From positions 1 through 64,000 of the forward strand of contig JAEUWY010000003.1 in the NCBI GenBank assembly GCA_022059125.1: DNA of 64,000 nt, read 5' to 3'. The notes under the pieces were generated by a model. The model searched no databases. It had not been told where the DNA came from and was given only the letters and a program-made list of their open reading frames with translations. The stretch is from Corynespora cassiicola. Taxonomy: Eukaryota; Ascomycota; Dothideomycetes; Pleosporales; Corynesporascaceae. Position 1 is the stretch's first letter. Each line of letters begins with the position of its first letter. Of the stretch, positions 2,441 through 46,601 are shown in pieces. The position numbers were made by a program, and so were the translations under genes.

Positions 2441-5400
2441 ACCTATTTGACAGACACTTACCAAGGCATGTCTGATCTCGCTCTCTGATGGTCTCACTAC
2501 TGGTTGAATTCTGTCTCGAGCATGGAACATCATCTCCAGTTGCTCAAAATTGGCCGTTATACATGCAGAAGTAAACAGCCTCTGCCCGTCTTTCCGCCAA
2601 AGGTATTCCCAGTAACTTGACTCTTGCATGGGTGCAACCTTCTGCCAAATACAGAACATGGCTGTATGACCGTTTTGTACAGTCCAAACAAACATATTCC
2701 AGAGAGGCAATGATCTCGTGTCTTCGATAGAATTCCATGGCATCCATTCTACCGGTAAATGCTTTCCGCATACAAAGTTTTCCAAGATCGTACAACGTGC
2801 TACGTCTTGCAAATCTAGGTAGCGGCTATGGCTGTGCCAGTAGGACTTACAGTATTCAGCAATTTGGAAGACAGGATCCATTTTTTTTGCTTGATGAACG
2901 TTAAGTTGAGTTCTTAGAACATCAACCAAATCAACTGGTTGGTGTGCCCTCCTGTCTCGACGGCTTCTGAAAGAGTTAAATGCTGCGAATGGTCGTACTA
3001 AAGTTGGAGTTATAGTCCCTACAATTCTCATCGGGTGATTCATGGAATTGAGGTTTGCTGTATCAGACGTTCGCGTGATAGCTTGATGAAAGTCCGTAAA
3101 GGACAAATATGTAAGGCAAACATCTGCCAGATATTGCTCTGCACTAGCTTCCTCAATAGCGAACTTGGATGCTTCTTCTCCGTTGTTATAGTCTTGTAGA
3201 AAAGCCTCAACCGTATGGTGAGCCAGTGATACTGTTTGGTTGGCCTCATCGAATTCGATAAGATTTCCGCACAGTCTAGCTAGTTTCGGTAAGTCAAACT
3301 TGAAAGAAGGGCTTTTCCACGACTTCTGGCCTGCACTGATGGATACAGCTTCTTCCAGCTCACCGATCATCAGTGGCCGTTTGCTGTAGACAATCCATTG
3401 AAATGTTCTCTTTGCTCGCTCAGCGTGATCATCCATTCTTTTAGAGAGTCTCTTTAACAAGAGACTATACAGATCTGTAATCTTTCGTGGAAGAGTCTCA
3501 AGAAGGTCAGGGATTCTGTTCGGGGTTCCATCCTCCTCACAAACATCGAGAATGGCTTTGAATTGTAGGTCAACCCAAAGGAACCTTACATGAATATCAG
3601 TTCACATGTTCTACTACGTTGAAATGGAAACTTTATCTTGCGACGTACATTCCTTCAGAGTCGGCCATCAATTTTCGCTTAATTGTGTCGAGTACGATGG
3701 GCGAACAGACAGACAGTGCTCCCTCTGAGTATTTGTCGACCTGCGAATCGATGAACGTTTCGATATCATCCTTAAGGTCCTCTCCCGTAATGTGTAGCTG
3801 CGAGCAGGGAGCTAGAACTTGCGACATGTTCATGGCTGCATGAGTGAAGACAAGGATTCGAGCACTGTCCGTCTTTTGTACTTCCTTGAGAAAGGATTTG
3901 ATATTGCGCTGTTCCACCTCGTTCACCTCGTCGAGTCCATCGATTAGAAGGAATGCTTTTTTGAATTGTCCGCAAGAGTGGAGAAAAAGCTGCTCAAGTT
4001 CGCTAGTAGAAGGCTCGAGCTGATTCATGCGGTTACCGAAAAGCGACTCCAAGCGTCTTTCAACGACCGGGGAAAGATTTTCAAGATTAAGAGCCTGGTG
4101 TAGAATGCACCTCAGAAAGGTTGGTATTTCCAAAGACTTCTTATTGAGAGAATCGAAAAAATAATAGATGACCGCTGTTTCTTTCTGGTCTGGAAAGGTC
4201 ATTCGTAGATGATCGACAACGGATGCCCTTGACGTTCACTTAGAGTTCTAGATCATGTAGCCACGTTGCAAGTTTATGGGGTCACATACAGAAGAATGGT
4301 TTTTCCACAGCCAGCTTCAGGTTCATAAGTCAGTACAACGACATGGTAAAACCACTATGTAGTTGGGGAGTACCATACGAATTCCGTAACACCAGAGATG
4401 TTTTGGGCTTACCCCCTCAATCCAATTCCAAAACTCTGATTTGCGAGGGAGCCAACCGGATGTTCCTGGACAACGCTGCCTTTGGGCTCGACGAAGGCTA
4501 GCAGCATAGTCATGGTTGAGGACATGTTCCAAAAGTCGGATTTTATCACGCCCTATAGAAGTCAAATGATTGTTTCGTTCCAAAAGTAATGCTCCTGCTT
4601 AGATGTAGTCACCTTCTTTTCGGAGGATCTTCTGGATCTGTCGAGCGTCGCTTCGCCGTCTTTCAAGCTCCTGCTGCGATCGGAAAGCCCGGTTCTCTTG
4701 TATGTCTGCGGTTTGTGTAACACGGAACGCTCTGCTCTCGTCTGCTTCTGCTGTTAACAAGCGACGAAAGCTCGCTGCTTCCCGTTCGGATGCCAGTTGT
4801 AGCTCCTCAGTAACTTCATTCTTGGCTTCACTGATGTCCTCCTCTATCTCTTTAAAATCCACTTTGAATGATTTCCAAACTGACTTTGAAAATCGTTTAG
4901 TGCCTAGAAAACATTGGTCCTTTAGCAATCTTGTAGACACACACAAGTGGAACAGGGAATACCACCTTTCTCCTGGACTACTCCCAGTGCCTTTGAGCAA
5001 AACCGCACCACAATAGCGTAAAAGTCGGCCAGTGCCTGTTGCAATCTCACCGAGGTAGAGAAAAGCTTCTCATACTCAGAGAGTCTGGGACAGTAATTGC
5101 TGAGTTGAGCTACTAGTTTCGACAACTTGTCAAAGTACTCAGCAAAATTTGTCAAGGTCTAGCACACAATAAGTACAAATCAAATGCGCTAGTAGCAAAA
5201 TAGGCCACAGACTAGGAGAACGAGTCTGATACCACCCCAGACTAGTGCCGCTATCTGGTTTGGCCCTGCGCATACATCGATGATTTTGCAATACTGCTGG
5301 ATGGAGCTTAGGAATCCTTGGAGTCGCGAAGCGAAGAGACGGCTCTTGCGGCTTGCGTTTGCCTCCACGATGTCCTTTGTTAGATGCACGACATCATCTT

Positions 5401-5476
5401 GTGTCGGCGCAGGGTTTGAGAATGAGCGAAGTTGAGCGGCTTGGTCTGCTGTGAGAATCTGCTGAAATTCGCTCAA
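1..5476 (-). CDS. NACHT-ankyrin NLR receptor (3' end beyond window)
   Basis: Intracellular STAND/NLR receptor, expected to signal in non-self recognition. Seven exons join in frame: 5476-5213, 5158-4966, 4903-4613, 4552-4413, 4354-4290, 4227-3649 and 3584 to beyond base 1. All introns are GT-AG, 54-64 nt. Domains: a DUF7708-like helical N-terminus (about residues 20-170), a charged coiled coil (170-250), a NACHT with P-loop AGCGKT near residue 310 and Walker B LLIDGLDE near 408, a helical linker, then about 24 ankyrin units from residue ~890 to the edge. No stop was met where the frame was read through (exons 1-6, the linker and the first units); the rest of the array has repeat lengths that are multiples of three. 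Transcription runs leftward, so the C-terminus is missing. A copy of the ~60-bp NLR-associated repeat lies at 5837-5897, upstream of the start. Family is certain; exact splice sites are inferred. Confidence 0.88.
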
Positions 5477-5836
5477 TGCTGTCGATAGCTCGCTATGTGC
5501 CCTGCTGTTATCAGTCGAACCCTCTAAAAGAACACCGGAAGGTATAGGCTAACATGACTTATGTGTACTTCCTTATAGCTTGAATCAGACAGTGTATCTT
5601 ATGTTGCTGGATAGAGTGTGTCGTTTCCGTGAGCGGGGTGGATTCAGGGCCGACTGATTGCTAGGCTGAAAGGCTGAAGAGCTGAAGAGCGTAGTTGCCA
5701 AGCTAATGCGTCTCGTTACACGAATACGAAAATACGCGCGCCATTAGATTGCCATTAATCACAGTCAAATAAGAGAGCTTATCATTGGTCTTCCGGAAGC
5801 TATCCTTGGGGGCAAAAACAAAAGGATATTGCGCGT

Positions 5837-5897
5837 GAACACCTGGAGCACGCTAGTAGGGACGCTGGCCGACCCGTTCCTGCCCTGATCTTGTGAT
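5837..5897 (-). repeat. NLR-associated ~60-bp repeat, copy 1
   Basis: Read on the minus strand this begins ATCACAAG, continues GGGCAGGAACGGGTCGGCC and ends GGTGTTC. It matches copies at 9055-9111, 13363-13419, 15805-15865 and 21056-21116. It reads toward the ankyrin NLR and starts 421 bp upstream of its ATG. A possible inverted partner would lie left of the window. Confidence 0.75.
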
Positions 5898-6139
5898 AAC
5901 CTTTTTCGTGGTGGTGAAATAGATAGAGCAGTCAGGATGCATGCCTATAATTAGTGTAATAGAGATAACTTTCTCGGTTACGGCAATGTGGCGTCGGGTC
6001 GGTGCTATCATCTCCGCTCTCCTATCACGTGCTGTTGCTTCGGAAACAAAGCGCAAAGCTCGGACCATATCCAATATGCTGCTTGGCCTCATTCAAAACC
6101 TGACATCATATCAACCACCATACGCCAACAGCCTCTATT

Positions 6140-7645
6140 ATGTGCGCGCGCGAGCGAGAAACTTCAATTTTGAAGTGGCTTGAAGATTTCCCTTGCGACC
6201 GTCAGAATCCTTCATTGACATCCGCAGAACCACTTACACCATTGTCATTGCGTTCGGGTCCGTCGACCCCCACTTTGTCAGGCAAACGGAAACGGGGGAG
6301 AAGCATGCCTGAACCCCGATCACACAGCCCTCAAAAGCGCCAACGGAGACTACCCGATGATGATGACATATTTCCTGATCAGAGTGCTTCAGACATAGGG
6401 GTGACAGAACTGTCGGAGAGGACTAAACTGTCGCGTCCATCGCAATCTGCCGGATCGAGTCCGAAGCGAGCAACGAGTCCCGTGCGAGACCTTTTGAATG
6501 ATTTACGCGTGTCGAAACCCTCTGTACTCTGTGAAATTCCGTCCTCGGTGACGCTTCCTGAGCGTGCTGCGGCCCTGCAGCGACGTCTGATGGACGAGCT
6601 TGAAGAGCGGCTTATTCCGGCAAGCTTAAAGGTAATGGGACCAGTCAGCTTAAGGACTTATTCCATGACATCTGACAAACAATACTCTGCAGCCTCGAAT
6701 ACTTGCGACATATCCTTCTGTAGCGGCGACCATTCCAACCTCAGCGTACGACGTCTCAGATACGCGATCAGCAGATGAACTCAACATATTATGGGATTGC
6801 GTGGAGGAGATTTTAAGCGAGAGCAGGGACTGTGGGAGATACCAACAAGATGAGAATGCTTGGTGTATGAAGGTGGTCCATCCAACCTTGCGCCTAGCAC
6901 TGAAGGGGAGCTCTATGCTGAAAGTCGAAAGCGTGTATGTCTTAACCTGAGCAACGCTCTCCACCGGTACTCAGTATGACTGAATATTGCCTTTGCAGAC
7001 AAACCCAAGCGGTCAATCCCGATATGCTGCCAATCACGCCAAAGAATTATCGTGTTCAAAGAAAAGCGGACTATACATTCGCTTTTCATCGGAACAATGA
7101 GCAGGTGTCGGAGCTCTACAACAAACTCCATCTAGTTGGCCTGGGTGACATGATCAGTCAGACAATACCAAGCGACTAGCTCTATTCTCTGGGATTGAGG
7201 TGAAACAAGAGAATGGAGGCAAGGACGAAGCGCTTGCCCAATTAGCAATTTGGCTGGCTGCAGGGCTAGAGAATGTTAGGAGATTGGCCGAAATAGGGCA
7301 AAAGCGACAATTTTCCGTTGAGGAACTCCGCCCCACGGTCGGATGGACGATCATCGGGCATGACTGGCATACATATATTGCTCACAGGGTTCATCAGGAT
7401 GGCCGAGATACGTTTGTAAGCATATCTGCACAAGCGGTCGCACATTGCCTAGCTAACCGAGCTGCGGACAGAACGTTGTGGGACCATGGAGACCTGCTAC
7501 CGCGGACACGAGGGATGTGTATGGAATCTTCAAGCTATTGCGATTGGTGAGAAGAGCAGCCGAATTTGCCTCGGATGAGTATTGGCCGTGGCTGAAAGAC
7601 GAAGTATTGATACCTTGCGTTAGCCATAATGGCCAAGGCCTGTAA
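6140..7645 (+). pseudogene. PD-(D/E)XK nuclease-like gene with one frameshift
   Basis: Member of a fungal family with a PD-(D/E)XK-like core (PDDEXK_12-type). Exons: 6140-6631, 6693-6934, 6999-7415 and 7472-7645. The protein has a basic Ser/Pro-rich N-terminus with KRKRGR and KRQRR nuclear-localisation-like motifs, a conserved DENAWCMKVVHP block and the core GIEVKQ...QLAIWLAA, which supplies the E-x-K pair. The four exons total 1325 nt, one base short of a whole number of codons. The break is at about 7160-7180, where the upstream frame stops at TAG and the family reading resumes one base off. This is either a young pseudogene or a one-base sequence error. A paralogue lies at 13787-15367. Confidence 0.7.
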
Positions 7646-8450
7646 CAAGCAAGAGCTAAAAGCCTCCACTCATGGATAAAACTTCTTGGTAGCGCAAATG
7701 ATAGGGCACAAGAAGAGGTGTTTTCACCTTCAGAGTGCATGGGAATAACTCGGATAGGGACTGAAGGACCGAAGGACTCAACAGCGGAAGCTAGTCACGG
7801 AAAATAGGAAGCAAATTCATTTTTAGTTTGAGTTCCGGACTGGGTCCCAGGGTCCAGGCCCGTGCCCTAAGACAACATATGAGCATCAGTCGGCTACGTA
7901 TCCTTAGTAGGTTCTGTCCTTCCCTGCTGGAATACGAGTAAACGCCTCTGGAGTTTTTATCAGAGGTGGCACACATATTAGAGGATCGTTCAATAGATTT
8001 TACATGGGATTGCAACGAAGTGCTGCTACACGCTTATGGTTTTCCATGGTAATGCTACTATGCTGTGATGAGCTAGCGCATGTTCCAATTAGTCTCAATC
8101 AAGGATCTTTGCGGGAACCAATCTGAACACCAAGACTCCCTGTAGTGCCAGCAACAACCACAAACTCAAAAGCATCTTTTTGAAAAGACTTTATCGCCTC
8201 TCGCACATGCAATATGGAAAATTCTGTAGAAATAAACAACCAGCCAGTGACCTCTTTAGAAGTTCATTTGGATAGGGACGTGTATGTGCCAATGGCTCCT
8301 GCTTCTTCGGGCTAGCCAAATGCGACACTGCGGGGCTGTGCTCTGCAGAGAATATTAGTCGAGCGGGGGGCTTATAATGGAGGCATCTAAATCACGACCA
8401 ACTCCTTAGAATATTGTTTAGTACGAATATACTGGCAGTCTGTAGCAGCC
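7646..8450. other. Intergenic, no recognised gene
   Basis: Only short overlapping open frames are present, and none has recognisable domains or a convincing splice structure. Confidence 0.5.
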
Positions 8451-8451
8451 A

Positions 8452-8733
8452 TGACCCTTCCTTGCTTTGTTTGCGACCAAATGCGAACCCGTAACCCAAA
8501 AAAAACACGAAAATCTCCAAACATCTGGACCCACTCAAACTTGTCTCCTCTGCGACCGAGATTTCTGCGGCAAGCACAAGGGGGAATCCGATGAGGTGTG
8601 CGAGATCAATCATGTCTCATACTATAGGAACCATAGACACCTTGGAAACACTTTTCCAACGCTGGCTGAGAGACTGAAGATGTTAAGTAGAGAAAGTGAG
8701 ACTGTAAGTCTCTTGTTCTTGCCTTTAGACTAG
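8452..8733 (+). pseudogene. Short Cys/His-rich fragment, probably broken
   Basis: One frame starts at the ATG at 8452 and gives MTLPCFVCDQ. After a run of eight A residues near 8500 the coding look moves to another frame, which reads CLLCDRDFCGKHK, CEINHVSYY and FPTLAERLKML. The spaced CxxC, CxxxH and C...H pairs suggest a small zinc-binding protein of a kind seen as fungal orphans. Joining the halves requires a frameshift at the A-run, so I treat it as a remnant. The function is unknown. Confidence 0.35.
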
Positions 8734-9054
8734 AGAGGTGTTTGCAACTAAGTATCACACAGATCATTGAAGGTAAATCAGATTCTACCTGTAGAGCTGA
8801 TTAAGAATGAAGTAAACCATACTATTTCAATCCAGACGAGTATTGTGCCTAGGGCAATCAAGGAGAGTATTTTTACGGAGTGGAGCGGTACATGTTCCGT
8901 GGATAATGTGGGATGAGACAGCCAAAACAGCCTCGTTACCTTCAGAATATTGTAGCAGAGCTAATCTAAAGATCTGTCCCCACGCAGCAATACACCGCCT
9001 CATAAAAGCTTGCCCTTAATCCCAATCCTATCTACTGTTCAAATTCAAAAGCGG

Positions 9055-9111
9055 ACAAGGTCAGGGCAGGAGCGGGTCGGCCATCGTCCCGCCAGCACGA
9101 TTGAGCCGTTC
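9055..9111 (+). repeat. Left inverted repeat of HNWD unit 1 (copy 2)
   Basis: Reads ACAAGGTCAGGGCAGG, AGCGGGTCGGCC, then CGTTC at its inner end. It begins 392 bp upstream of the HNWD1 ATG. Its closest relative among the copies is the inverted one at 13363-13419 on the far side of the same gene (roughly 80% by eye). The two enclose a 4.4-kb unit. Confidence 0.72.
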
Positions 9112-9446
9112 ATGCACGTCGTTCTTGCCCCTCCGCCACCACCACGAACGACTTATGCTGCGCCACACTCTGGGCTGTGCGAGCACTCGACCTCCAGCTA
9201 CGACCTCAGCCTGATGCAGCTTTGTCTCGCGAAATGGAGCACACAATAGCTGGTTGCATCATCGCGCTCTCTAATACTGGAATCAGGTGCTACCGATCCT
9301 CCTAACAACTCGACGCATTTACTAAGCTAGTAGCTAGGTCGTACGCGAAATAGACGACCGAGCTTGCTGTGCTCGCCTTGCTGGCTAGGCCGCCGCGATC
9401 AAGGAACTGTTCCTCCTGCATCTTTCTACCATCTCGATGCGACACC

Positions 9447-12400
9447 ATGCGCCTTCTACAGCACAGCGGTACTGACGCATACCAATTTACGAAGCTTTTC
9501 ACCAACGATAGGGCGATTCCTCCCTACGCGATCCTCTCACATACATGGGGAGCGGACGGCGATGAGGTCACATATGATGACTTAATAACGGACAATGGTA
9601 CGCATAAGCCTGGGCATGAAAAGATTCGGTTCTGCGCAGAGCAAGCCAGGCAAGATGGCTTAAAGCACTTCTGGATTGACAGTTGCTGTATCAATCAAAA
9701 AGATAAGGCCGAGCTGTCGAAAGCCATCAACTCTATGTTTACCTGGTATCGTAGAGCAGAGCGGTGCTATGTCTATCTGTCAGATGTTTCGACAGCTAAG
9801 CGGAAGTTAGATGGCGACACCTGCGAGTGGGAAGCTGCCTTTCGGAGGAGCAAATGGTTCACTCGAGGCTGGACGCTCCAAGAGCTGATTGCACCTCGTA
9901 TAGTCGAGTTCTTCTCTCGGCAATGCAAGTGCCTCGGCAACAAGGACTTACTGAGGCAACAGATCCATGAGATCACCAATATCCCAGTGGCTGCGCTTCA
10001 GGGAGAGCTGCTCTCGCAATTCAGCGTTAACGACCGCTTATCATGGGTCCAGCACCGCGAAACAAAGCGTGAGGAAGATAAGGCATACTCATTAGTGGGT
10101 ATTTTTGGTGTTTATATGTCCCCCATCTACGGCGAAGGGATAGGTAGAGCTTATGGCCGACTCCAAGACGAGATTAAGAAGCTGGAGGAGTGTATGAGAG
10201 ACCTACACGTCACCGATCCGCGGCGCGACAAAGCGCGTATTGAAGAGACCAAAGGCGGACTATTAGAGGAGTCGTACCACTGGATCTTCCAAAACCTAGA
10301 CTTTATCCGCTGGCGTAAAGAAACGCAAAGCCGGCTGCTGTGGATTAAAGGCGATCCTGGCAAAGGCAAGACTATGCTGCTTTGCGGCATCATCGACGAC
10401 CTGTACAGGTCCACGGCCAAGACGACTCTTCTCTCATACTTCTTCTGCCAGGCCACTGACTCACGTATTAACAATGCAACGGCTGTGCTAAGGGGTCTCC
10501 TATTCATGCTTGTCGACCAGCAGCCAGCGCTCATCTCGCATCTGCGGAAGGAATACGACCAGATAGGCAAAGCGCTCTTCGAAGATTCTAATGCCTGGGT
10601 TATTTTACGTGAGATCTTTTTAGACATTCTACAGGACTCGATCTTGGACAGCATGTACTTTTTCGTCGATGCGCTCGACGAATGTATAACGGATCTTGAC
10701 AAGTTGCTGGTCTTCATTGTGCAGAGTTCGTCTCTGTCACCTCGTGCCAAGTGGATACTGACGAGTCGCAACTATGTCAACATCGAGCAGCGACTACAGC
10801 TCGACGATTCTGGAGCGAGGCTCAGTCTTGAGTTGAAGGAAAACGCTGAGCAAGTCTCCCGTGCCGTTGGCGCTTACATCAAATATCGCGTTGGAGAACT
10901 GGAACAAATCCGGCATAACCAGCTACTCCAATCATCAGTTCGAGAGAAGATGCAACAGAAGGCGAACGGCACTTTTCTTTGGGTGGCTCTAGTCATGAAA
11001 GAGCTTAAAGAGGCACAGTCCTGGGAGGTATTGCAGGTCCTCAACGAAGTCCCGTCGGAGCTAATAGACGTGTACCGGCGGATGATGGAGCATATTAAGC
11101 AGTTAAGGCGCCGTAATCCAGAACTGTGCCGTCAAATTCTCTCTACTGTCATCGCTACGCAACGTCCGCTACATCTACAAGAGCTTTACGTTCTAGCGGA
11201 CTTGCCTAACCAGGACCCTAATATAGAAGAAACGACCGCGACGATGGTAAAAATGTGCGGTTCATTCCTCACATTACGAGAAAATCATATATATGTTGTT
11301 CATCAGTCAGCTAAGGATTTCTTATTAGACGAAACGACCCTCAGCAAGTTTCCGTCCGAAGCTGGAAAGATTCACCAAAACATCTTTTCCAGATCTATAC
11401 AGGTCATGTCTAATAGTCTCCAGCGAGATATGTATCAGCTGCATGCGCTAGGATACCCTATCGAGCAGGTACAACAACGCAAGCCTGATCCACTAGCGGC
11501 ACTACGGTACTCGTGTATCTATTGGATCGATCACCTCTGCGAATGGATTTCTAAGTCATCAACGTGCGATGGGAGCATTCTCAAGAGTGGTGGGGTGGTA
11601 GACGGATTCATAAGAGAGAAGTATCTCTACTGGCTCGAGGCTATTAGCCTTTGCACAAGCATGTCGAAGGGTGTAATGTCAATGGCTAAACTAGAGGCCT
11701 TAATCGATGTAATCTCCTACCAGCTCATTCTGTATAATAAGCATTTACTAACTAGACCAGAAGCAAGAAGCTACATCTTCGATAATGGAAGTAGTTCGAG
11801 ATGCACGGCGATTCATTATGTACCACAAATCGGCTATTGAGAGTAGTCCGCTTCAGGCATATGGCGCGCTTCTATTTAGTCCAACTCGTAGTATTATACG
11901 AGTGCTATTCAAAGATGAAGAGCCAAAGGGGATAGTAATTAAGCCAGGAATACAGGAACGATGGAGTAACTGCCTCTTAACACTCGAGGGCCACAGCTCC
12001 GCCGTCAGCTCGGTGGCCTTTTCTCACGACTCGACCTTGATGGCGTCCGCGTCCGACGACCGCACGGTGAGGGTGTGGAAGCCAGGCAGCGGCGAGTGCA
12101 TGTCGACGCTCAAGGGCCACAGATCCTGGGTCAGGTCGGTGGCCTTCTCCCACGACTCGACCCTGCTGGCGTCCGGGTCCGGCGACTGCACAGTGAGGGT
12201 GTGGAAGCCAGGCAGCGGCGAGTGCGTATCGACGCTTGAGGGCCACAGCGCCGCCGTCAGGTCGGTGGCCTTCTCCCACGACTCGACCCTGCTGGCGTCC
12301 GGGTCCGGCGACTGCACAGTGAGGGTGTGGAAGCCAGGCAGCGGCGAGTGCGTATCGACGCTTGAGGGCCACAGCGCCGCCGTCAGGTCGGTGGCCTTCT

Positions 12401-13173
12401 CCCACGACTCGACCCTGCTGGCGTCCGGGTCCGGCGACTGCACAGTGAGGGTGTGGAAGCCAGGCAGCGGCGAGTGCGTATCGACGCTTGAGGGCCACAG
12501 CGCCGCCGTCAGCTCGGTGGCCTTTTCTCACGACTCGACCTCGATGGCGTCCGCGTCCGACGACCGCACGGTGAGGGTGTGGAAGCTAGGTAGTGGCGAG
12601 TATATGTCGACGCTCGAGGGCCACAGCGCCGCCGTCAGCTCGGTAGCCTTTTCTCACGACTCGACCTTGATGGCGTCCGCGTCCGACGACCGCACAGTGA
12701 GGGTGTGGAAGCCAGGCAGCGGCGAGTGTATGTCGACGCTCGAGGGCCACAGCTCCTACATCAACTCAGTGGCCTTCTCTAACGACTCGACCCTACTAGC
12801 GTCCGCATCAGATGACCGCACGGTGAGGTTGTGGAAGCCGAGCAGCGGCGAGTGCCTTCTTATAGTCGACACTGGGAAGGTACTCTTTTACATTGCATTC
12901 GAATCCAGTGGTAACTACCTACACACTGACAACGGTATTATTAATGTCAGTGCTCAAACGACTACAACTCCAGCGCAAACCAGTGTAGAAACTCAGACCG
13001 CTCGGTATCAGGGCGTGGCTTTAGATGCAGCTGGTACATGGATAACACATAACTCGCAGAATATAATATGGGTGCCTTTAGAGTACCGATCATCTTGTCA
13101 AGCAGTGTTAGGAAATGTTATTGCTGTCGGAGTTGGGAATGGAAGGGTATGGATGTGCGAAATTCGAGAGTAG
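9447..13173 (+). CDS. HET-NACHT-WD40 (HNWD) NLR, intact
   Basis: Fungal NLR of the HNWD family, which includes the het-e/het-d/het-r incompatibility genes of Podospora. Two exons (9447-11708 and 11761-13173) are joined by a 52-nt GT-AG intron with an ACTAAC branch point, giving about 1224 residues. The HET cell-death domain covers residues 1-260 ([27 protein letters not shown]). NACHT has P-loop GDPGKGKT near 302 and Walker B FFVDALDE near 405. Seven WD40 units from about 829 form one propeller, followed by a conserved C-terminal cap (NSQNIIWVPLEYR). I chose the ATG at 9447 because the frame upstream of it lacks an ATG and the HET homology starts there. The HNWD paralogue is at 16189. Inverted repeats flank the gene. 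Confidence 0.92.
11985..12865 (+). repeat. Seven-unit WD40 array of HNWD1
   Basis: Coding repeat of 42 codons (126 bp): LEGHSxxVxSVAFSHDST, then ASxSxD.TVRVWK and GSGEC. Units 3 and 4 have identical amino-acid sequences. Differences concentrate at the residues after GHS and around the SxD turn, as in the specificity positions of HNWD proteins. Confidence 0.9.
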
Positions 13174-13362
13174 AGTGCGCTAGGGATGTTACGGCATTTA
13201 CGTGCACTTTTTCCCTCCTTAATCTATTTCCTATTAAATCTATATCATAGAGGGGGGCTGGGGCAGATATAGTACACGAGATTCCCCCAACGATACTGCG
13301 TGTATGTTCTACTCATGTAAGCATGGTTCGTCAATTTGTCACTTACTCCTTTTTAGGTGCAT

Positions 13363-13419
13363 GAACGACTCGATTGCGCTAGCGGGAGGATGGCCGAACC
13401 GCTCTTGCCAGGAGCTTGC
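13363..13419 (-). repeat. Right inverted repeat of HNWD unit 1 (copy 3)
   Basis: Inverted, diverged relative of 9055-9111. On the minus strand it reads GCAAGCTCCTGGCAAGAGCG, then TTCGGCC and, after a short gap, TCGTTC. It lies 190 bp after the HNWD1 stop. Confidence 0.62.
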
Positions 13420-13786
13420 GCCGGAGGCGTTGAATTTTCAGGTACATGTCAGAAGAGCAAGAAGGTATGCAGGGTTGCTGTCACAAGGATCTATTGAGCT
13501 AGTTACGGTCAAGATGTATTCCACAGGGTACCAGGCTCAGGATCAGCCGAAGCATAGAACTAAAGTCAACTAGCGTCAGAGCACGATCCACTGCGGGAAC
13601 TACAAGCGGGACCTAAATTAGCCAGGCACGACCGTGGCACGAGCTATAGATACGTCGTCGGTCTTCAGTTTTGTATCGGAGAGTAAACCAAAGCCGCCCA
13701 GCGTGCGCTGATTGGACGTGAGAATGTCTACACATGGCGAAGATTGATGCAATCCACTTCGTTGTTGTGGAACAGGTTATTTCGCA

Positions 13787-15367
13787 TCAGGAGAGCCCAA
13801 GAGTGAAGGTCAAATTATGTTCTGTGAAGCCTGAGTGCATCTTGTGGGATGAAGGTTGCGTTGTAGAATCGAGAGTAGCACCATGTCCCTCGTCAACGTC
13901 TCCGGCGAGCCTTTGCAACACTACCTCCATGAAGCTGCCCCAGAACCCACCATTTCCTCCATCCCTCCCGTACTTAATCACGTTTTGCCAAAGTCTTAGC
14001 GTCCGAAAGATACCACTCACACTCCTCGTCTCGCAGAGACCTAAGGAACCAACCTCTGGTCCCAGAATATGCACAGCATCCCGCTCCTCCGATTCCATGT
14101 ACGCAAAATAAACGTGCGTCTCATGCCCTATGATAGCGAAGCAGGGTTCCACTAGGTTGCTCTTGTCCACTAGTCCTACCCGTCGCGCAAGCTGCATCTT
14201 CTTCCGTAAGCTAGCTGCCATCCATATGCTGAGTTGGTATTCGGCTTCCGTGTGATCGCCGCTGGCGGGCTTGACCTCAACGCAAGAGAAGAGGGCCGTT
14301 GTTTTTGTAAAAGCGTCTGCCATGTGGCTTATGACGGGATTGCCTACATTTCTTAAACGGCTATACAGATCTTCGAAGCCCGGCGATTTTAGATGGGAGA
14401 AGGAGAGGGTAAAGTCGGCTTTGCGATCGAGTAGGCGAGGTTTGCCAGAAGCATCGGTGGTGGAGGATAGAAATTCACTAGCGATAGCCTGCGACTGTCT
14501 ATTGAGGTGTCAGTGCTTACATCCTAAACAGAAGCAAAAGAAGTCTTACACGCTCTGGAGCCAGAACTTCTCCTCCCCTTCCAGCCTCATCGCGAGCTTC
14601 ATCAATGGCTGAATCACGTCCATACACCACGCATTCTCATCGCGGCCTTTTGCCTGACACATACGTGCGTTAATCCAAATCTTCTTCACCTTTCGCAGCA
14701 GATACGCCAGTGCTTCACGCTCTTCACTGTCAACAGCTGGGTCCGCGAGGCGCCGCGCCGCGGCATTACTCCAAGCATGAGACTCAATCCTTTGGTATCC
14801 AAAATCTTCGTCTTCTTCTATCAGCTCCAGTAGCTGTCCTGGTATCCAGCCTCTGTCCAAGCCATCTTCTAGCCGCTCAATGACATCCCTTACCCTCCGT
14901 GGTGGCGGTGTTTTGAGCCCTGAGCTCGGTTCTGTTATCGTCGGAGGAGATGCGGAGGCTAGTATAGCGATGTTATCGCGCGACGGACTATTTGCTCGAC
15001 GAGGGCTTCTGTTGCTAGCTTGGCTGCTTGGTGGACTGAAGGTATTCCTTTCATTGAGCGTCAGCGCGCCCGCACTCGAAGCCGCTCCAGCTGCTGATGC
15101 GCTATGAGTAGGCAGGATTTCGGCATCGATATCGGTATCGCGTCTGGGTCGCTTAGGACTGGGATTGCGCGTCGACATTGTATGGGCACAGCACGCGGAG
15201 CAGGTCGCACGCTTCCGCTTCAGCGATGGGGCGTTCTCAGGCGTTGAGGGTGGGGAGATAGCGTCTGCCTGGCCTGGGACCGGTTCAGAGAGCTGCTGAA
15301 CCCAGCCTTCCACGCGCAAAGTCTTCGCAGCGGCGATAGAGGGCGACAATGGCGGCGTTGTGGCCAT
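13787..15367 (-). CDS. PD-(D/E)XK nuclease-like protein, intact
   Basis: Intact paralogue of 6140-7645. Exons 15367-14550 and 14498-13787 are joined by a 51-nt GT-AG intron, giving 509 residues. The N-terminal ~200 residues are Ser/Pro-rich and basic, with a KRKR cluster, SPKRPRRD and SPRRANSPSR, likely disordered and nuclear. A helical segment includes RDENAWCMDVIQPL. The C-terminal core reads LFSCVEVKPASGDHTEAEYQ, giving the E-x-K signature, followed by a GHETHVYFAY strand pair. Start: Met 15367 is preferred to an upstream in-frame Met at 15481 because it aligns better with the paralogue's N-terminus. Its substrate is not known; it sits between the two HNWD units. Confidence 0.82.
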
Positions 15368-15804
15368 GGTGGTTGGGTGCTTTGGTGGTTGCCTACCTTC
15401 TAGGTCCGACGCAGGGCACTCAAACGCGGCTAGAGCACGCTTAGTCGCGTCACCCAGGAAACAGTGCATAGGTTGGTACAAGAGATACTTTCACCACCAC
15501 GGCAGCGCGACAACCACACAATACGCACAGAGTTGCGTGACAGATTTCGAAGCCCATCTCGTTAACTTTAAAGCTGAAGGCGAGTGAGCTTGCATTCAAT
15601 GTAAGCATTGGGAGTGAAGATTTGATGTTCTCATCTGCGCTGGAGCTTACCAAGAAAGGGTTAGTACATCTGCAGCGACTCGGCAAGAAGATTCACCTAC
15701 CGCCCCAGCATCAGAACGGCTTGGCTCCCCATGAGTTACATCTGATCTCCATCAAAGGATGGTTCATCAACAACTCTCGCTAACATTTACGGCAGTAGCA
15801 AGCT

Positions 15805-15865
15805 ATCACAAGGTCCGGGCAGGACTGTGTCGGCCGTCATCCCTGCTAGCGCAGTCGAGGTGTTC
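15805..15865 (+). repeat. Left inverted repeat of HNWD unit 2 (copy 4)
   Basis: Reads ATCACAAGGTCCGGGCAGG, then CCCTGCTAGC and GAGGTGTTC. The inverted copy at 21056-21116 matches with about 8 differences over 61 bp. It starts 384 bp upstream of the HNWD2 ATG. Confidence 0.78.
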
Positions 15866-15918
15866 ATGCGCGTCTCCCATGTCCGCTTTCTGTGACCGCT
15901 GCGCGCCAGCCTTGCCAC

Positions 15919-15941
15919 GCCACGCCACGCCACGCCACACT
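15919..15941 (+). repeat. CACGC microsatellite in HNWD2 leader
   Basis: A short run of CCACG/CACGC units inside the 5' flank of HNWD2. It is absent from the matching flank of HNWD1. Confidence 0.6.
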
Positions 15942-16188
15942 GCTACCTCAGCCTGACCGAAATCTTTCTCACAACACTAGATCATGCAACCATGCACTGC
16001 TGTTGTCACAGCTTCTGAGCGCAATCCTTCGGTATTTCTCAACGCTTCATAGTCTTATATGCTTGCTGACCTTGTAGCCAGCCCTACGAAAGAAGACAAC
16101 CTAGTTGCGGGGTTCATCTCTCTAGCTAGGCTGCCGCAAACGGTCGCAGCTAACGCCTGCTCTCACCGCGTCTCTTCTCTCCTCCATC

Positions 16189-19100
16189 ATGGCCGAACTT
16201 ATGCGTCTTTTGAGATGCAGCGATACTGGCGAATTTGGTCTCCCTGAAGCTTTCGTCAGCCACAAAACTATCCCGCCTTATGCTATTCTGTCGCATACAT
16301 GGGAAGAGGGCCAAGAGGTCACCTTCAACGATCTTGTGAACGGTACTGGAAAGGACAAGACTGGCTGCGATAAGATCCGACTTTGTTCACAACAGGCTAA
16401 ACGCGATGGCTTGCAATACTTCTGGGTAGATACCTGCTGCATCGATAAGTCAAATCCTGCCGAGCTTCAGAAGGCCATCAACTCGATGTTTCGCTGGTAT
16501 AGGAATGCGACGAAGTGCTACGTGTATTTACGAGATGTTTCGACCATGAAGCGGAAAGCAAGCGATGGAGTCTTGAGATATACTTGGGAGCCAGCATTTT
16601 TGCAAAGTAGATGGTTCAGGCGCGGCTGGACGCTCCAAGAACTGATCGCCCCAGCTTCGGTTGATTTTTTCTCTCGAGAATGGCAGAAGCTTGGCGACAA
16701 ACAGTCGTTGACGCAGCAAATTCAGGAAGTTACAGTGATCCCAGAAACAGCGCTGCAAGGAACCTCTATGTTTCGATTCAGCGCTGAGGAACGATTTTCC
16801 TGGATACAAAGCCGCGAGACGACGGAAAAAGAAGACAAAGCGTACGCTCTCCTCGGTATTTTTGATATTGAAATGCCACTTTGTTACGGAGAAGGATATG
16901 CAAGTGCCTTTAAACGACTTCAAAAAGAGATCAGCAAGATAAAAACATGCCTTCAAGACTTACACTCAACCGATCCCCTTAAAGATAAGAAGCGTATCGA
17001 AGATACTAAAGGCGGACTACTGCTAGACTCGTACCGCTGGATCCTGGAACACCTGGACTTCCAGCAGTGGCAAGGAGAGTCGCAAAGCCGATTGTTGTGG
17101 ATCAAGGGTGACCCCGGCAAAGGGAAGACTATGCTCCTATGCGGCATCATCAACGAACTGGAAAAGTCACTAGCCGAGACAACTCTGCTCTCCTACTTCT
17201 TCTGTCAAGCAACAGACTCACGTATCAATAGCGCAACGGCCGTGCTGCGGGGTCTGCTGTTCACGCTTATCAGGCAGCAGCCATCGCTCTTCTTTCACAT
17301 GCGGGAGAAGTACGACCAGGCGGGCAAAGCGCTCTTCGAGGATGCAAATGCCTGGGTTTCTCTATCTGAAATCTTCACGAGCATTGTACAAGACACAAGC
17401 CTGAAAATCACATATCTCATTATCGACGCACTTGACGAATGCGTCACGGACCTGCCGAAACTGCTGGATTTAATTATCCAGACGTCTTCCGCATCATCAC
17501 GCGCCAAGTGGATTTTGTCGAGCCGTAACTGGCTTAATATTGAGGAACGTCTTGAGCGAGCGGAGGATAAGGTCAGGCTGAGCCTAGAGCTGAACGCCGA
17601 ATCAGTATCTGCTGCCGTGTACTCCTATATAAATTACAGAGTATCACAGTTGGCGCGAGTTAAGAATTTCAGTAATCAGACGAAGCAGGCTGTCCTGGAT
17701 TATATTCACACTAACGCAAACGACACTTTCCTCTGGGCAGCTTTGGTATGTCAAAATCTCGGCAACGTGTCGCGGCTTAACATTGTCACGAAGCTAAAGG
17801 CCTTCCCTCCCGGACTCGACTCTCTCTATGAGCGGATGGTGCAAAACATCAACGATTCAGAAGATGCTGGTCTCTGCAGGCAGGCGCTGGGAATAGTTTC
17901 CGCCGTGTATCGACCTATTACACTACACGAGCTGGCTTCACTTATGGAGGGGCTCGACGGCACGGATGAAAATTCGGACTCTGCCCGAGAGATCATCAGC
18001 TTCTGCGGCTCGCTTTTGACCATCCGAGATGGCACCATCTACTTTGTGCATCAGTCCGCAAAGGACTTCCTGCTTAAAGAGGCATCTAACACAATTTTCC
18101 CGTCCGGAAGAGAAGTTGTCCACTATGCAATCTTCTCTAGATCGATACTAGCTATGTCTAACACGCTCCGACGAGATCTTTATAGGCTAGGTGCTTTGGG
18201 GTATCCTATTGAGCAGATCCACCAGCCAGATCCTGACCCACTAGTAGCGTCACGATACTCCTGTATCTACTGGGTCGATCACCTCTGTGACTCCATTCTG
18301 GGCTCTGCTACAAACAACCGAGAGAGTTTGCAGGATGGAAGTATTGTTGATGTGTTTCTACGAAAAAAGTATCTTTATTGGCTGGAAGCTCTCAGCCTCT
18401 GCCAAAGCGTATCCAAGGGGGTTGTTTCAATGGCAAAGCTGGCAGCCTTAGTCCAGGCAAGTAAACGAGCAATATAGTTTTATTACAATGTATGCTAATA
18501 TGATGTAGAGTAGAGAACACGCACACTTATTAGTTGAACAAGTTCAGGACGTATATCGATTTATAATGTATTTCAAGGTCGCAATAGAGAGTGCGCCTCT
18601 TCAGGTATATGCATCAGCACTATTATTCAGTCCTAGGCGCAGCTTAGTAAAGATGCTTTTTCAAGAGGAAGCACCAAAGTGGGTCACAATAGCACCATCT
18701 GTGGCAGATGACTGGTCTGCTTGCCTGCAGACGCTCGAGGGCCATAGCAGTGTGGTCGACTCGGTGGCCTTCTCGCCCGACTCGCAACAGCTGGCGTCGG
18801 CGTCGTACGACAGCACGGTCAAGATCTGGGATCCGACGAACGGCAAGTGCTTGCAGACGCTCGAGGGCCATAGCAGTTGGGTCAGCTCAGTGACCTTCTC
18901 GCCCGACTCGCAACAGCTGGCGTCGGCGTCGGGCGACAAGACGGTCAAGATCTGGGACCCGACGAGCGGCAAGTGCTTGCAGACGCTCGAGGGCCATAGC
19001 GATGGGGTCAGCTCGGTGGCCTTCTCGCCCGACTCGCAACGGCTGGCGTCGGCGTCGTACGACAGCACGGTCAAGATCTGGGATCCGACGAGCGGCAAGT

Positions 19101-20897
19101 GCTTGCAGACGCTCGAGGGCCATAGCCATGGGGTCAGGTCAGTGGCCTTCTCACCCGACTCGCAACAGCTGGCGTCGGCGTCGTACGACAAGACGGTCAA
19201 GATCTGGGACCCGACGAGCGGCAAGTGCTTGCAGACGCTCGAGGGCCATAGCGATGGGGTCAGCTCGGTGGCCTTCTCGCCCGACTCGCAACGGCTGGCG
19301 TCGGCGTCGTACGACAGCACGGTCAAGATCTGGGATCCGACGAGCGGCAAGTGCTTGCAGACGCTCGAGGGCCATAGCGATTGGGTCTGGTCGGTGGCCT
19401 TCTCGCCCGACTCGCAACAGCTGGCGTCGACGTCGTACGACAGCACGGTCAAGATCTGGGATCCGACGAGCGGCAAGTGCTTGCAGACTCTCGAGGGCCA
19501 TAGCGGTTGGGTCAGCTCGGTGGCCTTCTCGCTCGACTCGCAACGGCTGGCGTCGGCGTCGGGCGACAAGACGGTCAAGATCTGGGATCCGACGAACGGC
19601 AAGTGCTTGCAGACGCTCGAGGGCCATAGCCATGGGGTCTGGGACCCGACGAGCGGCAAGTGCTTGCAGACGCTCGAGGGTCATAGCCGTTGGGTCAGGT
19701 CGGTGGCCTTCTCGCCCGACTCGCAGCGGCTGGCGTCGGCGTCGAACGACAAGACGGTCAAGATCTGGGATCCGACGAGCGGCAAGTGCTTGCAGACACT
19801 CGCAGCACAAGTTCTGGGATCTTGTGGGCCATTCAGCTCGCCTTCTCGACTCGCAGCGGCTGGCGTCGGCGTCGAACGACAAGACGGTCAAGATCTGGGA
19901 TCCGACGAACGGCAAGTGCTTGCAGACGCTCGAGGGCCATAGCGATTGGGTCAGGTTAGTGGCCTTCTCGCCCGACTCGCAGCGGCTGGCGTCGGCGTCG
20001 GGCGACAAGACGGTCAAGATCTGGGATCCGACGAGCGGCAAGTGCTTGCAGACGCTCGAGGGCCATAGCGGTTGGGTCAGCTCGGTGGCCTTCTCGCCCG
20101 ACTCGCAGCGGCTGGCGTCGGCGTCGAACGACAAGACGGTCAAGATCTGGGATCCGACGAACGGCAAGTGCTTGCAGACGCTCGAGGGCCATAGCGATTG
20201 GGTCAGGTTAGTGGCCTTCTCGCCCGACTCGCAGCGGCTGGCGTCGGCGTCGGGCGACAAGACGGTCAAGATCTGGGATCCGACGAGCGGCAAGTGCTTG
20301 CAGACGCTCGAGGGCCATAGCAGTTGGGTCAGCTCGGTGGCCTTCTCGCCCGACTCGCAGCGGCTGGCGTCGGCGTCGGGCGACAAGACGGTCAAGATCT
20401 GGGACCCGACGAACGGCAAGTGCTTGCAGACGCTCGAGGGCCATAGCGGTTGGGTCTGGTCGGTGGCCTTCTCGCTCGACTCGCAGCGGCTGGCGTCGGC
20501 GTCGAACGACAAGACGGTCAAGATCTGGGATCCGACGAACGGCAAGTGCTTGCAGACCATTGGTGTTGGCACATTCCTTCGCATCATAGCTTTTAATGCT
20601 GATAGTTCATCTCTGCACACAAATATAGGCACTATCGCCGTTAATGCACCTATGGCCTTGTCTTCTTCAAACATGACAGACATTACAGTTGCTGAGCAGG
20701 CGCAGTTTCAAGGGGTTGCTATAAGCTCAGACAACGTATGGATAACTTACAATTCACAAAACATCGTGTGGCTTCCACCTGACTATCGACCATCAGTCTC
20801 AGCTATATATAGTACACAGATTGGCATTGGGGTTGGAACTGGAAGGGTGTGGATATTCAGCGTTCAGTTTGAAGAGAAAGTTAGAAGCCGAATTTAG
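16189..20897 (+). CDS. HET-NACHT-WD40 (HNWD) NLR with frameshifted array
   Basis: Paralogue of HNWD1. Exon 1 is 16189-18456 and exon 2 starts at 18509. The 52-nt intron sits at the same place as in HNWD1 but has a GC donor (GCAAGT...TAG). HET covers residues 1-260 ([28 protein letters not shown]). NACHT has P-loop GDPGKGKT near 307 and Walker B LIIDALDE near 413. WD40 units start near residue 830. The reading frame holds for about nine units, then a net +4 nt change at about 19800-19860 shifts it, and translation would stop at 19942 (about 1233 residues). Past the break the array continues in the other frame to 20897, ending in the family's C-terminal cap ([13 protein letters not shown]). It could be a truncated but functional receptor or a young pseudogene. 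Confidence 0.85.
18725..20560 (+). repeat. WD40 array of HNWD2 (~15 units, two aberrant)
   Basis: Units of 126 bp with consensus [20 protein letters not shown], then SQxLASAS.[10 protein letters not shown]. Most are almost identical in DNA sequence. The unit at about 19626-19650 is shortened in frame, HGV running straight into WDPTSG. The unit at 19791-19920 is 130 bp instead of 126 bp and carries scrambled sequence. Later units alternate as SDWVR/SGWVS then SDWVR/SSWVS, indicating duplication of two-unit blocks. Confidence 0.88.
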
Positions 20898-21055
20898 AAC
20901 GTTTTCTTTTTGTCCTTCTATCTTCTATGATCTCTATTCCACAGAGGGGTCCGGGGATGTAGGTAAATATATAGTAGAATAGTTTGCCACAGAGAAACTT
21001 CGAGATTTATCTTAGTCATCAGCAAAGATAGTAAAAGTGCCGTCTGAAGTCATGC

Positions 21056-21116
21056 GAACACCTCGGCTGTGCTAGCAGGGATGATGGTCGACCCGTTCCT
21101 GCCCGGGCCTTGTGAT
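21056..21116 (-). repeat. Right inverted repeat of HNWD unit 2 (copy 5)
   Basis: Inverted partner of 15805-15865. On the minus strand it begins ATCACAAGGCCCGGGCAGG and contains CCCTGCTAGC. It lies 158 bp after the end of the HNWD2 cap. The pair encloses 5.3 kb. No target-site duplication is visible. Confidence 0.78.
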
Positions 21117-21521
21117 GGAGACACCAGAATTCTTAAATTATGGAAAGCCACTATACAAAGTTATCAGTGATTGTTTGCTATATGCGAAAGAGCGTGTGCC
21201 AAGAGTTCTCGAGTGCAGGTTCCGCTGGTGGCTGCATTAGGTCCCGAGATCCACCACGGGAACCAGAATAGGACCCGACCTTAGTCAGGCCCAGCGCGTG
21301 ATTAGTTCCTTGTTGATGCAAATTAGCTTTGCGCTAAAGGCTCTAACGTTTGCATCGCAGTCATTCCCCGCACCATAGTCCACAGCTACTGCGTCAATCC
21401 CAAGCCACCGGGTCTGTGACTCGAATTGTATATAAGTGAGGCCAAACCTGATTTCCAGAGATCTGTGAATCGAGATAAAACTCTCAGAACCATAGTTTTG
21501 ACATCGACCGCAATAGGTTTT

Positions 21522-22538
21522 ATGAGTGCTCCTCAAGGTTCTCGATGCAATCTATCGTCGTTGATACCGATATTACACCAGTACCTCACGGCCGAAGAAG
21601 AAGCACAGATTATCGAACAATTAAGAAAAGAATGGCGACGCAATGCTCAGGTTCTGTGGAGCGGCATTTTTCGTACAGAGGCCCAAGAATGGGCGGACAA
21701 GCATCACATGCAAACCCTGGCTACTACGATGGGGCCTCTCATGGACAAAAAGAATCCAATGTGTCCAAATCGCAAAAAGAAAGGAGGGGTTTGGGCTAGA
21801 TACGTTGAAGGAGCTTCTGCAATATTTGCATGGTTTATATCGAGAGGTGAATCAGTCATAGTGCTGTCTCCACCTCCCCCGCAAAGATTCAACCCCAATG
21901 GGTTCACGAGCTTGCAAATGATCGAGATTCCGATCCTTCGCTGGGCAGCAGCATTTGGTCATAATGCTTTACAAATTCAAATTGTGCACCCGATGGTACA
22001 AGGAGCCGAGGACTTCCGTTACCAGATTTGGCCTGTGGACGAAACAGATACTTGGAACATGCATTTTGAGACGGTAAAATATCAACAGCGGCTGTGGAAA
22101 GTACGAGGTTGGGACAAGTGGAGGGTTCTAATCATGAGCACCATTGATTCTTTGGTAGAATCCGGCTTTTGGAATCAGAGTGAAGTATTTGGAGTATTAA
22201 ATTGGAAAAAATTCTCCGCTCGTACGAAGGAAGAGAAAGACCGTCAGAAGAAAACGGACAAGCTATCGAAGAAGGTACAGATGACTGAGGAGGATAGCAA
22301 GCTCCAGGAGAATGAGAAAGAGAAAAAATTGAAGAAAAAGAAAAAGAAAAAGGTGAAGAAAAAAGAAGAAAAAGAAGAGCCAATGGAGTTTACTGCCAAG
22401 AAGAAGAAGAAGAAGAAGAAGAAGAGAAAAAGGAAAGAAGGTTGTAATGGAAAGACGGAAATAAGTGGAGAAAAGAAGGCAAAGGGGAAAAAGGGAGCGA
22501 AGAAGGAAAATGAAGTTAAAGAAGAAGCAAAGCCATGA
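21522..22538 (+). CDS. Unknown fungal protein with lysine-rich tail
   Basis: Single exon of 338 residues from the ATG at 21522; the frame extends further upstream but only from a TTG. The first ~240 residues look globular, with FRTEAQEWADKHHMQTLATT, MGPLMDKKNP, SAIFAWFISRGE, VLSPPPPQRFNP and GAEDFRYQIWPVDET. I recognise this as an uncharacterised fungal family without an assigned function. Residues from about 240 on are almost only K and E, with runs of seven or more lysines encoded by AAG/AAA tracts. Such a tail suggests nuclear or nucleic-acid binding, which is inference. It lies 400 bp after the HNWD2 inverted repeat. Confidence 0.7.
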   Translation: MSAPQGSRCNLSSLIPILHQYLTAEEEAQIIEQLRKEWRRNAQVLWSGIFRTEAQEWADKHHMQTLATTMGPLMDKKNPMCPNRKKKGGVWARYVEGASAIFAWFISRGESVIVLSPPPPQRFNPNGFTSLQMIEIPILRWAAAFGHNALQIQIVHPMVQGAEDFRYQIWPVDETDTWNMHFETVKYQQRLWKVRGWDKWRVLIMSTIDSLVESGFWNQSEVFGVLNWKKFSARTKEEKDRQKKTDKLSKKVQMTEEDSKLQENEKEKKLKKKKKKKVKKKEEKEEPMEFTAKKKKKKKKKRKRKEGCNGKTEISGEKKAKGKKGAKKENEVKEEAKP

Positions 22539-23129
22539 TTGTACGTGGTGCTTAGGTATTTTACGTAGTCCTACTACAATAGCCTAAGACGTCATACGCT
22601 TTTTACTCCAAAGGTCAAGAGCCTATTGGTGACGTCATGCAACCGCACTAATCATGACAAGCCAGACCACGTGATAAATAGCGAACATGCTGGGTTTATG
22701 TTAGCAGTATTAATAAATGAATTATAATCGGAACTTTTATGCATCTCTCTACTGAATGAACTTGCCATGACCGATTCGAGCATTGTTGATTCTGCTTCTA
22801 CTTAAGCTTGTGTCACGGGTCTAGAGCTGAGCATGACGGTTGGTCTGCGTCTGAAATTCTTGGCAACGGGCTACATCGATTGTTGCTTTCCTTCATCTCT
22901 CTTCCTCAAATGGAGTTCTAGAATATTGCCTCCAGCGTTGCGCGAAAGCAATAATAAATCGGTTTGAATGGGGAGAAAGACCAATCTGAGCTCCTTGTCG
23001 CGCTCAAGTGATCAAGCTTGAGCACTTCTCTACGGCGCTAGCGATTGCAGTGCCTAGGCAAGGAGCCGTCCTCTGTACAACTGTGTAACTGCTGTATCCA
23101 AGATCTACGGGGCCTTTCAACCTTTGCAT
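22539..23129. other. Intergenic, no recognised feature
   Basis: No coding frame with family resemblance and no repeat were recognised. Confidence 0.45.
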
Positions 23130-27730: not shown

Positions 27731-28226
27731 CTAACGTCTGTCACAACGTGGCGAGACACCCTGTGTGGCGAGACAGGTTCGCACTTCGGTCTCTCGGAAT
27801 CTCTTATTTGTGGACGGAGGCGTATGCAAAAGAACTATTAGCATTCTGCAATTGATTGTCTATCAGCGTATGGACCTCCGCTGCGAACTACTGAAGTGTT
27901 GGTCGTGTTGTCGCCTGTTTCGATAACCCCGTCAATCGACTCGCCAGCGATACCCCCCTGTTTACTCGCGACACCACGAGCTTTCTCGAGTTTCGGATAC
28001 TTAGAGTGAAGGCTTGTCGTACGAAGAGGCTGCTTTCAACATTAAGAGATCATCTTAACCCATGGAATCGCGTTCCGGGAGTTTCGCCGACCAGAGAAAG
28101 AAGACGACAAAAAGCTCCCAACATAGCGAGACGCTTTAGCGTGACCAGATATCGCCGTATTCTACTGTACTAAAAGCGACGCTAAGCCTACCTAGACCGA
28201 GATCTCGGGAATAACTGTACAGAAAG
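27731..28226. repeat. Outer left palindrome flank (diverged)
   Basis: Inverted counterpart of 39256-39750. Alignment by eye gives roughly 85% identity with small indels, against no visible difference in the inner arm. The edge at 27731 (CTAACGTCTGTCAC) is matched exactly by the reverse complement ending at 39750. It contains no gene. Confidence 0.8.
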
Positions 28227-28403
28227 ATCACGTGCCTTGTCTCTCTGCCTAATAGATGTTGTGTTTTCTAGCACGGCTCTATAGCGACTGGGCATGCTTA
28301 ATTTAGGCTAAGCAGATACAAAATGCATTTTTACAAGGAGTATGGAGGAATGGGATACAAAGGTTCTTGTAGTCTTTCTGGTAATACACTACACAACATG
28401 CTG

Positions 28404-31400: not shown

Positions 31401-31469
31401 GGCCAGCTCGACGGGCAGCGCGCACACCCATCCCACCGTGTAGTCTTCGCGGCGCAGCTGGTGCGACAT
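28404..31469 (-). CDS. PNP-NB-ARC-TPR NLR, short copy
   Basis: NLR with an enzyme-type effector domain. The phosphorylase-like exon (31469-30494) and the NB-ARC/TPR exon (30433-28404) are read as one gene: a 60-nt GT-AG intron (30493-30434, GTTAGT...GCTGATG...GGCAG) joins them exactly in frame, giving 1001 residues. Residues 1-325 are a PNP_UDP domain (LMVGIGGGVPS, CFEMEAAGL, GICDYADSHKN). NB-ARC has P-loop GLGGMGKTQ near 370 and Walker B LLVLDNADD. A TGE tripeptide repeat linker follows. Four 41-residue TPR units end the protein. Known PNP-type immune domains act on nucleosides or nucleotides; the substrate here is not determined. Without splicing it would read as two adjacent proteins. The twin gene is at 34171-39078. 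Confidence 0.88.
28509..29000 (-). repeat. TPR array, 4 units (left copy)
   Basis: Four units of 41 codons (123 bp) with core EDHPSRLASQHxLAxAY and ADGQVEKAVELLEH, the kinesin-light-chain type of TPR found in NB-ARC proteins. Confidence 0.9.
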
Positions 31470-46539: not shown

Positions 46540-46601
46540 TTCTAATGCCCTGTTAAGTCTTAACAGTACTATACAGCTGGTATGTAAGCAGTAAATCTCT
46601 A

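Follow-up and report, generated by a model that had tools for sequence, protein, structure and literature searches.

Does a short repeat that stands beside several immune-receptor genes mark the ends of units that move, or is it a regulatory element that these genes share? The question is raised by the first 64,000 nucleotides of contig JAEUWY010000003.1 of Corynespora cassiicola (C3:1-64000 of a 44.35-Mb genome of 23 contigs; hereafter the window), where five copies of the repeat lie next to three genes for NOD-like receptors (NLRs). An earlier account made from the letters without database searches, here called the sequence-only reading, had left it between a mobile or recombining cassette and a shared regulatory element. 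In this one genome, from which all results come, the repeat forms inverted pairs around units that mostly hold NLR genes (N cassettes), and these alternate with spacers of a second kind (P modules). We favour, at a probability of roughly 0.6, the view that the NLR cassettes are discrete units ending in inverted repeats and are mobile, or exchangeable as wholes, between the ends of P modules.

Repeat copies and modules in the window

The copies lie at 5837-5897 (plus strand), 9055-9111 (minus), 13363-13419 (plus), 15805-15865 (minus) and 21056-21116 (plus), with the positions and orientations of the sequence-only reading; alignment bears out that the second and third, and the fourth and fifth, face inward around the genes HNWD1 and HNWD2. 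In the alignment of the five, 32 of 77 columns are invariant, which is not identity at random level. What had been described as a repeat of about 60 bp consists of a core of about 38 bp common to all copies, ending in CCTTG and with the majority form GCAGGGATGACGGCCGACCCGTTCCTGCCCGGACCTTG, and a remainder shared within subfamilies only; the inner side of the core carries this subfamily-specific sequence. A core hairpin was considered and rejected, six sequences folded as DNA giving z-scores from -1.40 to 0.97.

Cassette B (9056..13418, plus strand), with copies 2 and 3 as its left and right ends, holds HNWD1 (open reading frames 9369-11840 and 11785-13173), and cassette C (15809..21112, plus strand), with copies 4 and 5 as its left and right ends, holds HNWD2 (16189-18477, 18566-19942 and 19002-20897). 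Pfam finds HET, NPHP3_N, NACHT and WD40 domains in the reading frames of both, that is, the HET, NACHT and WD40 combination of HNWD-type NLRs, and the four best Corynespora cassiicola matches of HNWD2 are 84-90% identical. Copy 1, whose core ends at 5893, closes a third unit on its right, cassette A (1..5893, minus strand), which runs off the contig start. The gene to its left (reading frames 2-3460 and 3633-4202, minus strand) had been called an ankyrin NLR, and Pfam gives ankyrin repeats and part of the NPHP3_N domain; a long ankyrin-repeat array with a period of about 105 bp lies at the contig start (window 1-2500). Both ends of this third unit are present in a near-identical stretch of contig C2 (C2:4754483-4761084, 6.6 kb). 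C3 (window 1-23887) repeats C2 from 4755192, the pieces compared being 100% identical; the HNWD2 unit differs in length by 122 bp between the C3 and C2 versions. The repeated stretch is either an alternative haplotype or a duplication, and a similar near-duplicate relation appears to hold for C13/C6, C17/C13 and C22/C2.

P module 1 (5894..9055, plus strand) carries a PDDEXK_12 nuclease gene, whose domain match (6759-7394) spans four in-frame stops, indicating introns or decay, and P module 2 (13419..15808, minus strand) carries another PDDEXK_12 gene (reading frames 14549-15481 and 13790-14509). Right of cassette C lies a probable P module 3 (21113..22937, plus strand), with a reading frame (21420-22535) that has no Pfam match and a right end, near 22937, that is tentative. 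Its right neighbour resembles the P-module ends of C2:4819800 and C8:1377901; BLAST gave no match for its left side, which was judged by eye only.

A genome-wide family with two module classes

Across the genome, a 24-base core pattern with up to three mismatches gives 43 matches versus none for the reversed control, a 31-base pattern from the outer half 23 versus none, and a looser 21-base pattern 71 versus 6. A profile built from the five window copies found 71 copies in the loci then collected, or 62 non-redundant ones after copies alike on both sides were dropped, and later finds brought the accepted total to 80, four of which (C13:900, C13:8530, C22:15051 and C22:18320) rest on pattern matches alone. 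The accepted set leaves out seven further loose-pattern matches (six in the reversed control), and L059 (C5:2995038), a pattern match without a profile match, was dropped. Since the patterns missed divergent copies, these copy counts are minimum figures.

Inward pairs around NLRs recur beyond the window. When neighbouring copies less than 16 kb apart are taken as intervals, 24 face inward (-+), 21 outward (+-), and four each are -- and ++. The inward units measure 3.3-12.7 kb; 18 of the 24 contain an NPHP3_N-type NLR domain and none contains PDDEXK_12 or Pkinase_fungal, a distribution that is not one of a genome-wide repeat unrelated to NLRs or to inward pairing. Among the 21 spacers, nine have PDDEXK_12, seven Pkinase_fungal, one an NLR and five none of these three. 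Most units were read in part. Of the six without NPHP3_N, C2:4740237 and C6:2751072 were read as arm pieces only, without annotation, and the remaining four hold a TPR-type NLR-like gene (C1:328600), a HET gene (C1:495710), a PAN-domain gene (C1:501815) and an ankyrin gene (C6:2824776). A cytochrome P450 gene lies on the inner side of the core at L021 (C13:39498) and L022 (C17:13075), so the cargo is not NLR only.

The same division appears from the side of the domains. Of the 19 PDDEXK_12 loci, 18 have a copy no more than 12 kb away, and each of these is on the outer side of that copy; about 2.1% of the genome is that close to a copy (77 copies). Pkinase_fungal loci (n=15) are divided into nine outer, one inner and five far, and NLR loci (n=110) into 35 inner, five outer and 70 far (34, 6 and 70 with 77 copies). 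These loci result from merging 123 NLR, 28 PDDEXK_12 and 22 Pkinase_fungal domain matches into 110, 19 and 15, respectively; the interval counts are unchanged between partial domain positions (56, 18 and 10) and the full set. The counts include near-duplicate contigs, and without C3, C13, C17 and C22 there are 21 inward units (15 with NLR) and 17 spacers (seven with PDDEXK_12, five with kinase), with 16 PDDEXK_12 loci outer and one far.

Paired ends and the outer edge

The private variants that the sequence-only reading had seen within each pair are a genome-wide property. Core similarity is 0.888 between paired ends versus 0.788 when shuffled (19 pairs, C3 pairs left out; 0/2000), and 0.858 versus 0.785 without the four palindromic units described below (15 pairs; 0/2000). 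Ends that face each other across a spacer reach 0.778 versus 0.769, which is not beyond chance (521/2000).

The extent of homology was compared between copies drawn from the 62 non-redundant ones. For the 43 pairs whose inner flanks are alike and whose outer flanks differ, identity in the successive thirds of the core is 0.955, 0.884 and 0.862 (each 0/400 permutations), with dips at several variable core positions, and background is reached from +2. For the 30 pairs of the opposite kind, alike in the outer and different in the inner flanks, the values are 0.692, 0.797 and 0.797, with high identity outside the core, and for 1774 unrelated pairs 0.729, 0.792 and 0.751. Homology switches at the outer edge of the repeat. 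In the outer flanks (n=62) the first base is T or C in 59 and the second base G in 41.

Different units at the same base

Near-identical P modules carry different units at the same base. Over 1941 bp the modules C1:326.6-328.6k and C1:373.0-375.0k have 99.3% identity, and they score 1.00 across the last 100 bp before the edge; past it, one is joined to a palindromic TPR-NLR-like unit and the other to an unlike NLR unit whose core is also different. The DUF3435-bearing P modules on C2 and C1 agree at 98.9% over 2933 bp and 97.4% over 898 bp, the C1 module having about 455 extra bases between the two matching blocks; they are identical over the last ~87 bases up to the edge, where one adjoins a palindromic unit and the other a unit with a HET gene. 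In all, 18 copy pairs have like outer flanks (at least 0.85) and unlike inner flanks, and, conversely, units of one inner family adjoin several outer families, with sharp ends.

Flank patterns give the same picture of the junctions. Two N-side patterns gave five and six matches, all 11 at a known core. Two P-side patterns gave 17 and six matches at 22 distinct junctions, with a core at 18 and none at four; at C1:325.8k two P ends abut with 0 bases between them, at C16:308.1k two lie within about 3 bases, and one core-less junction, tentative, is in the window near 22937. Of three places where a copy was expected, C1:483.5k and C1:123.1k have copies that the patterns had missed and C1:524.3k has none.

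Four of the 24 units are long inverted duplications (near-perfect palindromes). C1:501815-507163 is palindromic at 99.7% and almost spacerless, C1:328600-341267 has 4.66-kb arms at 97.9%, and the arm pieces of C2:4740237-4751987 and C6:2751072-2760935 agree at 97.6% over 1477 bp and 99.2% over 1193 bp, respectively. The arms end at the core edge, and the sequence outside differs on each side. Arm agreement in C2:4808206-4819800 is limited to 212 bp, and C6:2824776-2832314, HNWD1 and HNWD2 are self-complementary at their ends only.

Probable cassettes and rival explanations

Of the two options of the sequence-only reading, the cassette is supported beyond the window, by inward NLR pairs with matching ends and sharp boundaries, unit families in several contexts, the alternation of N and P, and P junctions without a unit, and the regulatory option is disfavoured as the entire explanation in view of the copies on the 3' side, the pairwise-matching ends and the switch of homology at the edge. 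N cassettes, each bounded by inverted copies of the common ~38-bp core and usually containing one or two genes of NLR or HET type, would be inserted or exchanged whole between the ends of P modules, which carry PD-(D/E)XK nucleases, fungal protein kinases and, in two cases, a DUF3435 tyrosine recombinase. A recombinase may act at the unit edge without duplicating the target, crossover could take place at the invariant TTG found there, and palindromic units may have arisen by copying one half from the inverted repeats. The outcome would be the shuffling of complete NLR genes.

Several observations weigh against such cassettes. The evidence is a single genome without dating. No transposase or other enzyme tied to the core was found in the units, most of them partly read, and P modules keep their own ends where the core is missing. 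Target-site duplications, which had been suggested as a check, are not in excess of chance in 19 inward pairs, where direct repeats sum to 6 versus 4.9 (423/1000), or 33 versus 26.2 with 3 bases of slack (112/1000). The 70 NLR loci classed as far lie more than 12 kb from any accepted copy, five of the 40 near a copy lie on its outer side, alternation is broken in eight of 53 neighbouring pairs, and part of the cargo (P450, PAN-domain gene) is not NLR. Pairs with like outer flanks also rise slightly in the outer core third (0.797 versus 0.751; 39/400, not significant); because of this rise and of the near-invariant TTG, the edge is placed only to within ~5 bp and may sit inside the core.

The main rival, because P ends keep their edge without the core too, is that the P modules, with their nuclease, kinase and recombinase genes, are the mobile part and insert precisely beside the core as a target. 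P ends recur beside many different units, the core is missing from four of the 22 P-end junctions (at one of these, two P ends abut directly), P modules encode nucleases and twice the DUF3435 recombinase, and the first base of T or C in 59 of 62 outer flanks amounts to a weak shared end motif. We nevertheless consider this unlikely, since ends across a spacer are alike only at chance while the ends of a unit are not, and the core varies with the unit and not with the spacer.

If nothing were mobile, the core could serve as short homology for ectopic homologous recombination or gene conversion, consistent with clustered genes and with neighbours shuffled exactly at the shared repeat. Crossovers would then be expected throughout the core, but unit identity runs through to its outer edge, and a stretch of 38 bp with ~80% identity is little for homologous recombination to work on; this explanation is disfavoured, and its chances are slim. 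Poorer still are those of an element with a regulatory or boundary function that selection maintains between NLR genes and nuclease or kinase genes. Copies do lie upstream of the three window NLRs and near P-gene starts at 5893 and 15809, but other copies lie downstream of NLRs, and regulation alone would not lead one to expect pairing, sharp edges or unit swaps. An assembly artefact of mis-joined repeats or fold-back reads, which near-perfect palindromes and near-duplicate small contigs might suggest, is scarcely credible, given that the arms of the palindromes end at the core edge, that the sequence beyond differs on each side, and that the same junction types occur on several contigs. Gene duplication with passive flanks fails to explain inverted, paired and sharp ends.

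Candidate enzymes

DUF3435 genes occur at six loci. Two of these are next to units, on their P side and at 1-2 kb from a core, and a third, on C9, has the same module as these two. The DUF3435 recombinase is a weak candidate for the enzyme, by association only. Transposases of the pogo/Tc5 type with a DDE_1 domain are encoded at window 46683-48332, at L033, at L083 and in part at L092, and the unit C1:97085-109042 holds a DDE_1/Tc5-type transposase reading frame whose inverted repeats are separate from, and dissimilar to, the core. The window element (46599-48457) has its reading frame between 54-bp perfect inverted repeats. As movers of the units these transposases were rejected, the 54-bp repeats in the window and the 335-bp repeats (91.6%) of L083 resembling the core no better than shuffled sequence does.

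Known systems and significance

Like transposons with terminal inverted repeats (TIRs), each unit has paired inverted ends, and unit families stand in different contexts with sharp ends. Most TIR superfamilies make target-site duplications and a few do not; here the 19 pairs show no excess. Non-autonomous elements of the Pack-TIR or miniature inverted-repeat transposable element (MITE) type also have inverted ends round captured genes and form unit families at many places, but in this case neither target-site duplication nor a related autonomous element was found, and the ends abut a second class of gene module. Spy-type transposons combine inverted ends with precise insertion without target-site duplication, a likeness drawn from their description. 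The four palindromic units of 24 resemble fold-back elements, although long arms are not the rule among the units read, as HNWD1, HNWD2 and C6:2824776-2832314 lack them.

Starships, as described in a passage of PMC12134995, are 15-700 kb long, with direct repeats, a captain at one end and sometimes inverted repeats, and their cargo can include NLR genes and commonly DUF3723 genes. In the passage concerned, another paper states that transposons can carry NLRs of fungi; individual NLR units flanked by inverted ends are described in neither. The present arrays resemble Starships in being fungal, with such cargo possible, and in having a DUF3723 gene (window 50293-52221) and DUF3435 genes nearby. 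They differ in that N cassettes measure 3.3-12.7 kb, direct repeats were not detected in the 19 pairs and no captain was seen in the N cassettes sampled. The arrays as wholes could be Starship cargo. Both HNWD genes share with those of Podospora the HET-NACHT-WD40 architecture and highly similar WD40 repeats, but the portion of PMC12222747 consulted names no flanking inverted repeats, and nowhere in that paper do "inverted repeat" or "mite" occur. Among the titles and abstracts listed from open-licence PMC papers, none describing such an NLR unit was found; viral contigs gave no core matches, which is uninformative for fungi.

With a short marker for the limits of exchangeable NLR units, these could be listed in any assembly and traced between strains, and the way in which fungi assemble and reshuffle their large and rapidly evolving sets of NLRs would become directly testable. 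That N cassettes alternate with modules of nuclease and kinase genes suggests a common island, and a common mechanism of exchange, for receptors and effector-like genes. A bolder proposal, which is tentative and for now rather doubtful, is a eukaryotic system of immune-gene cassette exchange, in which NLR modules and nuclease or kinase modules, each with their own ends, would recombine at one directional site, perhaps through a DUF3435-type tyrosine recombinase, so that the complete receptors and the effector-like genes of defence islands would be reshuffled with no duplication of the target.

Other features of the window

Window 27731-39750 is a head-to-head palindrome of a PNP_UDP_1/NB-ARC-TPR NLR, in which no core copy was found; its arms (28525-31921 and 33719-37115) are complementary at 99.8-100%. 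A gene with a JmjC domain lies at 54123-55760.

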